A stretch of 64,000 nt of DNA from positions 868,001-932,000 of the forward strand of contig CANLXL010000001.1 of the NCBI GenBank assembly GCA_947495125.1. Direction: 5' to 3'. The translations under genes and the position numbers were made by a program. Below are positions 60,701 to 63,829 of this stretch, piece by piece (position 1 is the stretch's first letter; each line of letters opens with the position of its first letter). The notes under the pieces were generated by a model. That model did not search any database and was not told the DNA's origin. It worked only from the letters and a program-made list of their open reading frames with translations. This stretch comes from an uncultured Flaviramulus sp. (GTDB taxonomy: Bacteria; Bacteroidota; Bacteroidia; Flavobacteriales; Flavobacteriaceae).

Positions 60701-61132
60701 ATGAACGATGTAATATCTAAAGAACACGTGTTTAGTCACACTATCGACAAAGTATGGAATGCCATTTCTAAAGCTGAAGAGATTTCAGCATGGTTTATTC
60801 AGGCAGATTTCAAAGCTGAAAAAGGTTATAAGTATACCTTCACTGCAGAGCCTAACGAAAAAGGTTGTACCATTATTAGCGGTGAAGTGAAAAATGCCAA
60901 CCCCTACGAATTAGTATACACCTGGATCGTTGGCGATACGAAAACAGAAACCACGGTATCATGGAAGTTAGAATCTATTGAAGACGGTACCAAGCTCTAC
61001 TTGGAACACTCCGGTATTTCTAACTATGGTGGTGAAACCGCAGTAAAAATGTTTGAAAGCTTTAATGGCGGTTGGGATAATTGTATTAGCGAGCTTTCGG
61101 GCTATTTAAAAGAAACTGTTCATGCAGGATAA
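60701..61132 (+). CDS. SRPBCC (AHSA1-like) domain protein
   Basis: A 143-residue START/Bet v1-like protein of the AHSA1 group: FSHTIDKVWNAISKAEEISA then WFIQADFKAEKGYKYTF, YELVYTWIVGDT and a C-terminal helix FESFNGGWDNCISELSGYL. The fold makes a hydrophobic pocket for a small molecule, or it may act as a co-chaperone; no ligand can be predicted. It overlaps the following ArsR gene by 11 bases, so they are translated together. Confidence 0.9.
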   Translation: MNDVISKEHVFSHTIDKVWNAISKAEEISAWFIQADFKAEKGYKYTFTAEPNEKGCTIISGEVKNANPYELVYTWIVGDTKTETTVSWKLESIEDGTKLYLEHSGISNYGGETAVKMFESFNGGWDNCISELSGYLKETVHAG

Positions 61133-61451
61133 AATAACCAAACTATTCAAAGCCATTGCAGATCCAACCAGGCGTGATATTTTTCACGCCTTGGTTATTG
61201 CCGGTACAGCACTGTCCATCACACAAATATCCAATCAGTTCGATATTAGTCGCCAAGGGGTGACCAAGCATATCAAGACACTGGAAAATGCTGGTTTGGT
61301 TTTTATCGATGCTCAAGGCCGGGAACGCTTTTGCAATGCCAACCCTAAAGAGCTTAAAGAAGTGAACAAATGGCTGCAATTCTACTCGCAATTCTGGGAC
61401 AACTCCTTACAAAACTTAAGTCAGTATTTAGACCACAAAAAAGATGCTTAA
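61122..61451 (+). CDS. ArsR-family transcriptional regulator
   Basis: A 109-residue winged-helix repressor: KLFKAIADPTRRDIFHAL, ITQISNQFDISRQGVTKHIK as the DNA-reading helix, and LVFIDAQGRERFC as the wing. No metal-binding Cys cluster is seen, so it is probably of the non-metal type that is typically paired with SRPBCC genes. The paired GCAAC/GTTGC sites at 60619 and 60661 are candidate operators. It overlaps both neighbouring genes. Confidence 0.93.
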   Translation: MQDKITKLFKAIADPTRRDIFHALVIAGTALSITQISNQFDISRQGVTKHIKTLENAGLVFIDAQGRERFCNANPKELKEVNKWLQFYSQFWDNSLQNLSQYLDHKKDA

Positions 61452-61881
61452 CGATACCCTAAACACGAAAGACCTTCATTATAAAACGTCTATCGAAACA
61501 ACAGCAAACAAAAAGCTAATATTCTCAGCATTAAATGAAGAGTTGCACGCTTGGTGGGGAAACATCAGCAATTCAAATTTCGAAACCGGAGGTCAATTCA
61601 CCATTACTTTTGAAAATGGATATTGGTGGACCTTTAAAATTTTGGAACATACACCCGACAAGGAGCTTGTTTGGAAATGTATCGATGGTGAACCGGAATT
61701 CAATAAAGAATGGATAGGCCACGTACTACATTGGCACATAGAGGAAAAAGACAAAAAAACGATTCTTAATTTTCATCAAATAGGACTGACACCAAATATA
61801 GCATGTTATGATATCTGTTCATCCACTTGGAATCGATTCCTCACTGAAAATTTAAAGAATTTTGTGGAATTAAAAATATAG
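61444..61881 (+). CDS. SRPBCC domain protein, second copy
   Basis: A 145-residue Bet v1-like protein: YKTSIETTANKKLIFSALNE, HAWWGNISNSNFETGGQFTI, ELVWKCIDGEPEFNKEWIGH and a C-terminal helix TWNRFLTENLKNFVEL. It overlaps the ArsR stop by 8 bases and so ends the three-gene operon. It is closer in pattern to the gene at 62025 than to the one at 60701. Confidence 0.88.
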   Translation: MLNDTLNTKDLHYKTSIETTANKKLIFSALNEELHAWWGNISNSNFETGGQFTITFENGYWWTFKILEHTPDKELVWKCIDGEPEFNKEWIGHVLHWHIEEKDKKTILNFHQIGLTPNIACYDICSSTWNRFLTENLKNFVELKI

Positions 61882-62024
61882 TTTTACCTATTATCAAATT
61901 CAGCATATTCATAAAATAACATACCTATAATTATTCAAAAACCTTTAAGAGAATTTATGAGCTCAGTATTAAATGTGTGTTATAGGACGCTTCATCAATG
62001 AATTAAAAATAAAAACATATAAAT

Positions 62025-62450
62025 ATGGCAAATATTAGACATCATTTAACCATTAAAGCGCCAATCAAAAAAGTATATGAGGCATTGACTTTGGAACAAG
62101 GGTTAAAAGGTTGGTGGACAAACGACACCTCTGCAAAACCCGAAACAGGACATATTAACCATTTCAAATTTGGTTCTGAATATTTCAATAAAATGAAGGT
62201 TACAGAATTAACGCTTCCAACCAAAGTGACTTGGGAGTGCATAGACGGAGACAAAGAATGGATCGGTACTAAATTAACCTTTGAGCTCGAAAATAGAGAA
62301 GGCGAAGTGCTTCTGAAATTTTCTCATTTAAATTGGGCCGAAGAAAGTGATTTTTTTGGTTTTTGTAATCATCATTGGGGAAGATATTTAGATAGCCTAA
62401 AATCTTTATGTGAAACTGGCACCGGACAACCTTACAAACAACAGGAGTAG
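62025..62450 (+). CDS. SRPBCC domain protein, third copy
   Basis: A 141-residue Bet v1-like protein: HHLTIKAPIKKVYEALTLEQ, GLKGWWTNDTSAKPETGHIN, KVTWECIDGDKEWIGTKLTF and FCNHHWGRYLDSLKSLCETG. It lies 143 bases after the previous copy, with its own leader, and is likely a tandem duplicate. Its ligand is unknown. Confidence 0.9.
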   Translation: MANIRHHLTIKAPIKKVYEALTLEQGLKGWWTNDTSAKPETGHINHFKFGSEYFNKMKVTELTLPTKVTWECIDGDKEWIGTKLTFELENREGEVLLKFSHLNWAEESDFFGFCNHHWGRYLDSLKSLCETGTGQPYKQQE

Positions 62451-62545: not shown

Positions 62546-62577
62546 TTTGATTTAGTTAGGGATCCTTACTATATTTG
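62546..62577 (+). promoter_or_regulatory. Bacteroidota promoter overlapping a MarR-operator-like palindrome
   Basis: A -33 box TTTG (62546-62549) is followed after 20 bases by a perfect -7 box TATATTTG (62570-62577), 29 bases before the glutaredoxin-like start codon. Between them lies GTTAGGGATCCTTAC (62555-62569), an inverted repeat. A protein bound there would block the promoter. Confidence 0.7.
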
Positions 62578-62606
62578 TATCATAATAACAATTAAATAAA
62601 ACGATT

Positions 62607-62840
62607 ATGAGTAAATCCATTTTTTATCACGCAGGATGTCCGGTATGTGTAAGCGCAGAACACGACATTGTCGCATTAATAGGAGTCAATAATGTAGATA
62701 TTGTACATGTTGGTGAAGACAAATCCAAAATTTCCGTAGCAGAGAATGCTGGTGTTAAATCCGTTCCGGCCTTGGTTACGCCAAACGGAAATGTACTACA
62801 TATTAACTTTGGGGCTTCCATGGAAGACGTTAAAGGATAA
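62607..62840 (+). CDS. Small glutaredoxin/thioredoxin-like protein
   Basis: A 77-residue thioredoxin-fold protein. The active-site motif CPVC sits at once after the first strand (FYHAGCPVCVSAEHDIVALI), and the cis-Pro segment VKSVPALVTPNG follows. The size matches minimal glutaredoxin-like thiol reductases. It has a near-consensus promoter overlapping the palindrome shared with the DUF2024 and MarR genes, so a redox-responsive unit is likely (inference). Confidence 0.85.
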   Translation: MSKSIFYHAGCPVCVSAEHDIVALIGVNNVDIVHVGEDKSKISVAENAGVKSVPALVTPNGNVLHINFGASMEDVKG

Positions 62841-62856
62841 TTTTTTAACCCAAGTA

Positions 62857-62870
62857 GTTAGGAATCCTAC
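62857..62870. promoter_or_regulatory. MarR-operator-like palindrome before the DUF2024 gene
   Basis: GTTAGGAATCCTAC has the same arms as the site at 62555-62569 and lies 29 bases before the DUF2024 start codon. Confidence 0.6.
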
Positions 62871-62899
62871 TTAAATTAACGCTATTAAAATCAATTCAT

Positions 62900-63163
62900 A
62901 TGAAAGTTTCAGTTTGGGATACATACGTAAAAAGAGAAGATGGTAAAGTAATGCACTTTGATATTCTGGTATCAAACGAATTTAACGATGAACAAATCAT
63001 TTTAAACTATGGCGCGATATATTTAAAAACTAAAGCTTTTAAAACAGAACACATCTCATCAAAAGCTTGTAATTTCTGCCATATTGAGCATGCCACAGAT
63101 TCTATTATGGAGGACATTCAAAACAGAGGGTTTTCGATTATTGAGTTGGAAAATTGTGACTGA
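62900..63163 (+). CDS. DUF2024 family protein
   Basis: An 87-residue protein that matches DUF2024 throughout: MKVSVWDTYVKREDGKVMHF, then DILVSNEF and NYGAIYLKTKAF. A Cys/His motif CNFCHIEH sits near the C-terminus. The function is unknown in the family. The CxxCH motif and the shared operator-like sequence link it with the neighbouring glutaredoxin-like and MarR genes and suggest a thiol- or metal-related role (inference). Confidence 0.85.
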   Translation: MKVSVWDTYVKREDGKVMHFDILVSNEFNDEQIILNYGAIYLKTKAFKTEHISSKACNFCHIEHATDSIMEDIQNRGFSIIELENCD

Positions 63164-63187
63164 TTTAATTAGGATTACTAACTTTGT
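63155..63187 (+). promoter_or_regulatory. Promoter and operator-like site of the marR gene
   Basis: A TTG at 63155-63157 is followed after 22 bases by TAACTTTG (63180-63187), a good -7 box. TTAGGATTACTAA (63170-63182) overlaps it and resembles the sites before the two preceding genes, as expected for autoregulation. Confidence 0.6.
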
Positions 63188-63226
63188 CCCGATAACTCCT
63201 GAAAATATTCAGGAGGGGACTTTTTT

Positions 63227-63829
63227 ATGAAGAACAATATTTTTAATCCTACACATCAAGAAAACGATCTTTCGAATAAGATTGTTGCAGGCTTAGAGCG
63301 TGTTTCTGAAGCCTTTAAGGTATTGCTATGGGAAAAAGCCAAGCTTTTAGGATTGAGTCCTATCCAAATTCAAATACTCATTTTTGTAAACTATCATAAA
63401 CTCGAATTTTGCAATGTAAGCCATTTAGCCAAAGAGTTTAATGTTACAAAACCTACTATTAGTGATGCGGTTAGAGTTTTACTTCATAAAGCACTCATTG
63501 AAAAAGTTTATCCTTCGTCAGATAGCCGACGCTATGCCATACAATTATCAGACTCGGGTAAACGCATTGTATTGGAAACGGAAAATTTCGCACATCCGCT
63601 TAAAAAACAACTAAATCATATTAATAAAGACGATTTAGAATCCACTTTTATTACCCTGAGCAAACTTATCTATAAATTAAATAAAATAGGGGTTTTAACG
63701 GTTCAACGTACTTGTTATGCTTGTAAATTCTACGGTAAAACTAATGAACAGCACTATTGTAATTTATTGAAAAAAACATTACAAGATTCCGAGATACGAA
63801 TTGATTGTCCCGAGTTTGAAATAAGTTAG
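63227..63829 (+). CDS. MarR-family regulator with C-terminal Cys/His cluster
   Basis: A 200-residue winged-helix regulator. The DNA-binding core reads LGLSPIQIQILIFV, NVSHLAKEFNVTKPTISDAV and LIEKVYPSSDSRRYAIQLSD. Unlike a plain MarR it has an extra C-terminal segment RTCYACKFYGKTNEQHYCNL and, further on, IDCPEFE. Together these give CxxC, HxC and a final Cys that could hold zinc or an iron-sulfur cluster. The neighbours are a thiol reductase-like gene and a DUF2024 gene with CxxCH. All three have a TTAGGnnnCCT/ACT-like site in front, so a redox- or metal-sensing regulon is a fair inference. Confidence 0.88.
   Translation: MKNNIFNPTHQENDLSNKIVAGLERVSEAFKVLLWEKAKLLGLSPIQIQILIFVNYHKLEFCNVSHLAKEFNVTKPTISDAVRVLLHKALIEKVYPSSDSRRYAIQLSDSGKRIVLETENFAHPLKKQLNHINKDDLESTFITLSKLIYKLNKIGVLTVQRTCYACKFYGKTNEQHYCNLLKKTLQDSEIRIDCPEFEIS

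Follow-up and report, generated by a model that had tools for sequence, protein, structure and literature searches.

A Cys4 MarR Protein and Its Conserved Operator Define a Probable Redox-Responsive Gene Cassette in Flavobacteriaceae

A MarR-family protein with four invariant cysteines in its C-terminal tail (Cys4 MarR) very probably serves as a local repressor of the small gene cassette in which it is encoded. Control of this cassette by oxidants or nitric oxide (NO) through the cysteine tail is the reading that we favor with moderate confidence. The same moderate confidence attaches to the circuit as a whole, in which a repressor is joined to an oxidant- or NO-sensing Cys4 center, and this grading reflects the redox/NO control and not the local repression. 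The cassette lies at the end of a 64,000-nucleotide stretch of DNA from an uncultured Flaviramulus sp., which we refer to as the window.

Results

Genes and candidate operators in the window

Three genes on the same strand close the window, and they encode a 77-amino-acid thioredoxin-like protein (TRX), a DUF2024 protein and the MarR regulator (Table 1), as proposed in the initial annotation. TRX carries a CxxC motif and is homologous in sequence to a solved thioredoxin-like protein (PDB 2k8s, E 8e-24), which places it in the thioredoxin-like superfamily; the Pfam thioredoxin models miss their cut-off on it (16.4 versus 24.8). Both of its cysteines are kept in 101 of 103 homologues, the remaining two having gaps. 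The second gene product belongs to DUF2024 by its match to PF09630 (101.3 bits, cut-off 27, E 2.7e-29), is similar to PDB 2hfq (6.9e-15), and has residues C57, C60, H61 and C86 that are invariant in homologues (73/73). Upstream of the cassette, positions 60701-62450 of the window hold AHSA1 genes and a gene for an ArsR-like regulator, and such genes (clusters 8, 5 and 12) again adjoin the cassette in several close relatives.

Table 1. Positions of the cassette genes and of associated elements in the window.
Feature	Position	Strand	Remark
TTTG, -33-like element of TRX promoter	62546-62549	+	20 nt before TATATTTG
Operator 1, GTTAGGGATCCTTAC	62555-62569	+	before TRX, between -33-like and -7 elements
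-7 box, TATATTTG	62570-62577	+	abuts operator 1
TRX, 77-aa thioredoxin-like ORF with CPVC	62607-62840	+	ORF and PDB match
Operator 2, GTTAGGAATCCTAC(T)	62857-62871	+	before DUF2024
DUF2024 protein, 87 aa, CxxCH and C-terminal Cys	62900-63163	+	Pfam PF09630
Operator 3, ATTAGGATTACTAAC	63168-63182	+	before marR
-7-like box, TAACTTTG	63179-63186	+	overlaps operator 3
Leader hairpin and T-run, terminator-like	63187-63226 (stem 63196-63215)	+	directly before marR ATG; folding
MarR-family regulator, 200 aa	63227-63829	+	Pfam profile and model fold
Cys4 tail: Cys163, Cys166, Cys178, Cys194	63713-63808	+	invariant

An inverted repeat centered on TTAGG had been noted in front of each gene, and all three copies were located. 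All have TTAGG-N3-CCTAA as their core and are imperfect palindromes. The TAnnTTTG boxes that had been described as abutting or overlapping the repeat in two cases are likewise present at sites 1 and 3; these -7 elements, as well as the -33-like TTTG, are named on the basis of the Bacteroidota promoter consensus. No box of this type was seen on inspection of the sequence at operator 2, whose role, with no recognized promoter at hand, may be just to modulate read-through. When up to one mismatch is allowed, the pattern TTAGGNNNCCTAA occurs at six sites in 64 kb, three of which occupy the three intergenic gaps of the cassette, and none of 4000 first-order Markov sets placed a site in at least two of these gaps. 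When 3 mismatches are tolerated, the window as a whole shows no clear enrichment (17 found, 12.6 expected), so the evidence consists of position and conservation, not of count. The Markov result and the conservation in relatives described below led us to reject chance palindromes as an explanation.

Distribution of the cassette in Flavobacteriaceae

Of 199 genomes drawn evenly from the family, 45 encode a MarR homologue with E 1e-10 or better, and a scan of named genomes kept the best 80 of 146 relatives. Together with the window end, 125 loci gave 126 sources, of which 111 are distinct in the last 190 MarR residues, with a median pairwise MarR identity of 0.62 and a minimum of 0.29. According to our own ORF calls, the order of genes immediately upstream of and including marR among these 111 is TRX-G3-DUF2024-MarR in 53, TRX-MarR in 26 and TRX-DUF2024-MarR, the type found in the window, in 15; seven have MarR alone, five have TRX-G3-MarR and five have other orders. 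The gene that follows marR at its 3′ side falls into 82 different clusters among relatives, and the cassette therefore appears to be mobile as one unit. TRX was found in 38 of the 199 genomes, all 38 being among the 45 with MarR, and a TRX match is missing in the other seven; under the assumption of independent genomes, which does not hold, the chance probability of this co-occurrence is 5e-34. In Lacinutrix (L096), a gene for HTHP (Pfam 4.7e-34) lies inside the cassette.

The extra gene present in many relatives, G3, encodes a protein of about 240 amino acids whose start resembles, by eye, that of a secreted protein, and whose motifs HPDFDDTPLWDEN and WHxHW are invariant in 51 aligned rows. 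It has no Pfam or NCBIfam match above cut-off. Its structural model is predicted to be mostly beta (pLDDT 78, with weak stretches), the best Foldseek hit has E 0.36, and an alignment to 2ivf_C by VIA-align (Z 7.0, rmsd 4.4, 147 aligned) was discarded because it lies at the stated noise level of the tool. Given these weak matches and the quality of the model, we make no claim about the fold of G3. The family (e.g. L077:4944-5669) is common to Bacteroidota, Roseobacter, Vibrio, Rhizobiaceae and Deinococcus, where it is often beside a Cys4 MarR.

Conservation and reach of the operator

The initial annotation had staked its proposal on conservation of the sites and of the cysteines in homologues. 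For the sites this is borne out, since most homologous intergenic regions of the family carry them and, in the genomes tested, they occur elsewhere at background level. With at most one mismatch allowed, operators precede TRX in 91 of 101 upstream regions (0.4 in letter shuffles), G3 in 56 of 63 (0.1), marR in 93 of 109 (0.3) and DUF2024 in 9 of 19 (0.1 in shuffles), where the omission of upstream regions shorter than 20 nt from these counts removed most of those belonging to DUF2024. The consensus of TRX promoters across relatives is AGTTAGGAWTCCTTACTATATTTG, and TAnnTTTG abuts the operator at the identical position in 88 of 95 of them. Because the operator directly precedes the -7 box, a bound protein should exclude polymerase. 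The marR operator is followed by CTAACTT[TA][GA] in 87 of 111 loci. Taken together, these arrangements strongly imply repression by occlusion at TRX and, within the family, self-control of marR. A second palindrome-like element, TGCAATAATGCA, is found about 5-14 nt past the -7 box in about two thirds of TRX promoters and is absent from that of the window.

Exact copies of GTTAGGANNCCTWA were sought in 40 of the 45 MarR-positive genomes, leaving aside the five with the weakest MarR matches (G057, G076, G102, G144 and G190), and in 40 of 154 genomes that lack MarR. Of the former, 37 contain the sequence, 34 of them at the cassette and the other three (G000, G026 and G129) exclusively at other places; of the latter, four contain it. 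The genome of the window has no exact match at its own cassette, where the sites are slightly degenerate. Stray sites occur in 6 of 40 MarR-positive genomes, approximately the frequency in genomes without the regulator. Six of the seven sites examined outside the cassette fall inside long ORFs, on which ground a genome-wide MarR regulon was rejected; the seventh (L240), at the start of a 107-amino-acid ORF and about 60 nt before another ORF, may be a true regulon member. Since stray sites stay at background level, the regulon looks close to the cassette alone in the genomes tested, in agreement with the earlier description of the system as self-contained. In G102, TRX-G3-DUF2024 with an operator before TRX lies about 26 kb away from the MarR gene.

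RNA hairpins at the operators

Among marR leaders, 81 of 87 fold below -4 kcal/mol, a count made without a shuffle control. The hairpin of homologues varies in sequence and mostly keeps its place between operator and start codon. It may end the upstream transcript or limit expression of marR.

In the TRX-G3 gap, the operator makes up the 5′ arm of a probable RNA stem with 14 pairs (alignment A5, e.g. L061:4898-4964). Three of 63 leaders of the secreted protein were skipped for length, and A5 comprises 50 of the other 60. Among the ten omitted as short or odd (L121, L078, L097, L107, L109, L119, L033, L037, L040 and L102) are five, L121, L078, L097, L107 and L109, none of which folds the stem, and the stem count is thus favorable by selection. 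In the alignment, 83.2% of cells are paired, compared with 27.5-53.4% when the arms are slid, 29 cells are changed on both sides compared with 13.0 in shuffles, and 42 of 48 sequences retain the center pair compared with 29.6 when shuffled (0/20000), all of these statistics being drawn from related sequences that are not independent. Pairs with changes on both sides are not outstanding (4 versus 3.0; reached by 72 of 500 shuffles), and RNAalifold returned no structure for A5. We consider it probable that the operator of this gap lies within an RNA stem. The 3′ arms of the stem vary and pairing is mostly kept, including the free center base. Membership of the hairpins in a known RNA family was rejected, as L061 and L198 gave no Rfam match.

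The MarR protein and its cysteine tail

Assignment of the regulator to the MarR family rests on a profile match to MarR_2 (PF12802, 35.2 bits, cut-off 27; PF01047, at 22.4, remains under its cut-off of 24.6) and on its predicted fold. The AlphaFold model (pLDDT 85, core residues 10-156) aligns with 3gfj over 140 residues (Z 15.0, rmsd 2.1, model residues 14-156). Beyond this core lies a small tail modeled with moderate confidence, in which successive ten-residue blocks from position 161 have pLDDT values of 68, 84, 80 and 60. The tail had been annotated as CxxC...HxC...C, and of this motif the cysteines stand, each of the four being conserved in 111 of 111 homologues, whereas the histidine does not, since position 176 is H in 38 and D in 56 of the 111. 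An alignment of 30 sequences across phyla, covering Spirosoma, Hymenobacter, Enterobacteriaceae, Pseudomonas and Phaeobacter among others, has just 12 invariant columns, namely P45, Q47, T77, S79, L85, D99, R101, L107 and the four cysteines. Neither fold comparison nor a sequence search with the tail matched a known metal site resembling it, and identity with a known zinc site was rejected on the phmmer search with the tail alone, whose best PDB match has E 0.46. As an alternative to a sensor, the tail may hold a structural zinc, with another ligand.

Relatives outside the family

A search of the phylum found the regulator in 22 of 296 genomes. Cys4 MarR proteins also occur in other Bacteroidota, Proteobacteria and Deinococcus, where thioredoxin-like, DUF2024, redoxin, HTHP, MOSC, Rof or protoglobin genes are their neighbors. 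In Proteobacteria plasmid records, the MarR gene is divergent from TRX-DUF2024-Rof in Enterobacter sp. 638, Lelliottia and P. aeruginosa, and from TRX-Rof in E. hormaechei. Ruegeria, Phaeobacter, Shinella and Deinococcus combine MarR and G3 with genes annotated as redoxin, HTHP, MOSC or peroxidase-related. The order in Hymenobacter is catalase-G3-HTHP-protoglobin-DUF2024-unknown-MarR, with an Rrf2 gene and a flavohemoprotein nearby; annotated Rrf2 genes lie near three Cys4-MarR loci. Small genes before MarR in Hymenobacter (L180:5291-5578) and Spirosoma (L179:7176-7442) look somewhat like Rof by eye, yet a Pfam search at E 0.01 gave no match for them. A Polaromonas plasmid (L226) encodes a pair of MarR proteins whose Cys tail is a variant; one of the two genes adjoins an aconitate hydratase gene.

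Outside Flavobacteriaceae, the operator is found before TRX at L188, L195, L196 and L200, and with two mismatches at L201. Four loci from genomes that are not among the 22 regulator-positives (L189, L190, L192 and L193) lack it before DUF2024 (best 3 mismatches), a weak control because a DUF2024 gene internal to an operon often has no site even beside MarR; TRX of L192 also lacks it (best 3 mismatches). Before marR, the operator is missing from all 18 loci outside the family (L207-L224; best 2-4 mismatches), which makes a separate operator for marR less likely in those lineages. As judged from these sequences, self-control of marR would be a trait of the family, or would act through the upstream gene in other lineages. 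Protoglobin genes (Pfam matches of 6e-29 in L199, 1.8e-34 in L215 and 2.3e-28 in L219) are preceded by the operators ATAGTTAGGAATCCTTACTATATTTG, TTGTTAGGAATACTAACTAATTTT and ATAGTTAGGAATCCTTACTATTG, respectively; at the other two of five loci where a globin gene adjoins MarR, L213 and L224, no operator precedes the globin.

Operator and recognition helix change together

The palindrome GTATCG-N3-CGATAC is present in perfect form in four gammaproteobacterial MarR/TRX gaps, three of the hosts being Enterobacteriaceae. Each gap alone has P 0.04-0.06 by shuffling, and the shared sequence is the point. Further candidate operators are GTAGCGACTCGCTAC in Phaeobacter, GTGTCGACTCGATAC in Vibrio (5 of 6 pairs), TATAGGACTCCTATA and CATAGGAATCCTATA before marR in Shinella and Sinorhizobium, respectively, and GTTAGGATTCCTAAT before DUF2024 in Spirosoma. 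Ruegeria, Hymenobacter, Deinococcus and Leisingera have no perfect 6-3-6 palindrome; half-sites in Ruegeria were read by eye, and in the other three no operator was found by the scans used.

When half-sites are labeled by hand as TAGG or TCG/GCG, the recognition helix reads PT.[ST]D in five proteins with TAGG operators and GT.SQ in six with TCG/GCG operators. The helices at L199 (KPTVSD), L219 (KATVSD) and L215 (KATISE) broaden the TAGG type to [PA]T.[ST][DE]. No operator is assigned to the Deinococcus (APTVSD) or Hymenobacter (RATISD) protein. The 15-bp, N3-centered geometry is constant across operator types. This joint change of helix and half-site argues for direct binding by MarR and is the best evidence here that the protein would recognize these sites. 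Together with operator conservation, it supports the expectation that a MarR dimer sits on a palindromic operator.

Discussion

In the circuit that we propose, a MarR dimer at the operator would block RNA polymerase, and the four tail cysteines would hold one metal center (zinc or Fe-S) or serve as a thiol switch. Damage to the Cys4 center by an oxidant or NO would release the dimer from DNA and induce the cassette. Its products (TRX and DUF2024, and elsewhere the secreted protein, HTHP, redoxin or protoglobin) would clear the stress or undo damage to thiols, after which repression would be restored. The partners, which include thiol, peroxidase-like and heme proteins, and the Cys4 tail lead us to infer an oxidant or NO as the first candidate signal and an electrophile or metal as the next; the redox, iron or zinc response suggested in the initial annotation would have the same grounds. 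Counting against this circuit, cassette partners vary and several have unknown functions. A broader reading is tentative: the protein could represent a MarR class spread across phyla whose Cys4 center, possibly Fe-S, is a sensor of NO or oxidants and has protoglobin, HTHP and a TRX/DUF2024 repair pair under its control, with an operator code that can be read from the helix and, in cassettes with G3, an operator within an RNA stem that may tune downstream genes.

One rival keeps the repressor circuit and differs in the inducer, which could be a small molecule (an electrophile, a phenolic or a metabolite) that occupies the normal MarR pocket, with Cys4 as a purely structural zinc site. The MarR core is indeed ordinary, and genes for VOC, carboxymuconolactone decarboxylase, PDR/VanB oxidoreductase and MOSC proteins near relatives would fit electrophile or xenobiotic stress. 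However, the invariant positions across phyla are eight core residues and the four tail cysteines, so that constraint on the tail is at least as strong as on any pocket, and we regard this possibility as rather unlikely. That MarR monitors zinc or iron levels for the cassette, as a metallostat and not as a stress sensor, seems improbable. Its motif, CxxC...C...C, is a usual ligand set for zinc or Fe-S, and DUF2024 is called a metal-binding archaeal family in PMC6393860; nevertheless, the cassettes seen include no metal transporter, zinc transport gene or chaperone, and the NCBIfam AdcR model (NF038251) scores far under its cut-off on the window protein (28.6 versus 175 bits). Least probable of all, and very much so, is activation, in which a MarR protein bound beside the -7 box would bend DNA or contact RNA polymerase. 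A few MarR proteins do act as activators, but the near-uniform placement of the operator directly before the -7 box is that of a site whose occupant should exclude polymerase. We retain local repression by MarR, with oxidant or NO sensing by the Cys4 tail, as the preferred reading.

The proposal brings four families of unknown role (DUF2024, the 77-amino-acid CPVC protein, the secreted HPDFDDTPLW protein and the Cys4 MarR) into one predicted circuit, and a predicted operator is now at hand for several lineages. The promoter GTTAGGATTCCTTACTATATTTG provides an inexpensive reporter, and the stress that induces it would thereby be identified. Should the sensor turn out to be the tail, the MarR family would gain a four-cysteine sensor type. 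Our search of the open literature, beyond which most subscription papers lie, found no description of the circuit. The repressor is of a known kind, and the proposed Cys4 oxidant/NO circuit is apparently undescribed.

Among the closest counterparts is the MarR-thioredoxin-DUF2024-Rof cluster of P. aeruginosa, which we take from synteny to be PA0942-PA0939, with PA0942 as the Cys4-MarR homologue. The same Cys4 MarR, TRX and DUF2024 families are adjacent there, but the order is divergent, Rof (a Rho-binding antiterminator) is added, and the operator is of the GTATCG type. A literature search found no functional paper on this cluster, and mentions of PA0942 and PA0939 in the open papers searched are limited to one table, one gene list and one sentence of a discussion. 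One publication tabulates PA0942 as up 1.54-fold, and another counts it as one of seven genes of the oxidative response that are down by 1.52- to 4.16-fold; these expression data give no clear pointer.

Known regulators of related kinds include the MarR thiol switches (OhrR, MexR, SarZ/MgrA and HypR), the zinc-dependent MarR proteins and the Fe-S regulators of the Rrf2 family. The thiol switches resemble the protein described here in their MarR fold, in a suspected cysteine switch and in a small oxidant-defense regulon, whereas our protein has four invariant cysteines in a separate C-terminal tail and other target genes. OhrR has its reactive cysteine in the first helix, a region that matches residues 1-61 of the window MarR, where no cysteine is present, so the latter is not of the OhrR type. 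AdcR and ZitR share the MarR fold (5yi1, Z 14.1, rmsd 6.3, 128 aligned; 5jlu, Z 14.0, rmsd 3.8, 133 aligned) and possibly metal-linked repression, but the ligand set differs and zinc transport genes are not part of the cassettes seen. NsrR and IscR, Fe-S regulators with three cysteines, offer a parallel in their cysteine-ligated sensor and their NO and oxidant theme, and Rrf2 genes lie near some of the loci; they nevertheless belong to another DNA-binding family, and the tail described here has four cysteines in place of their three.
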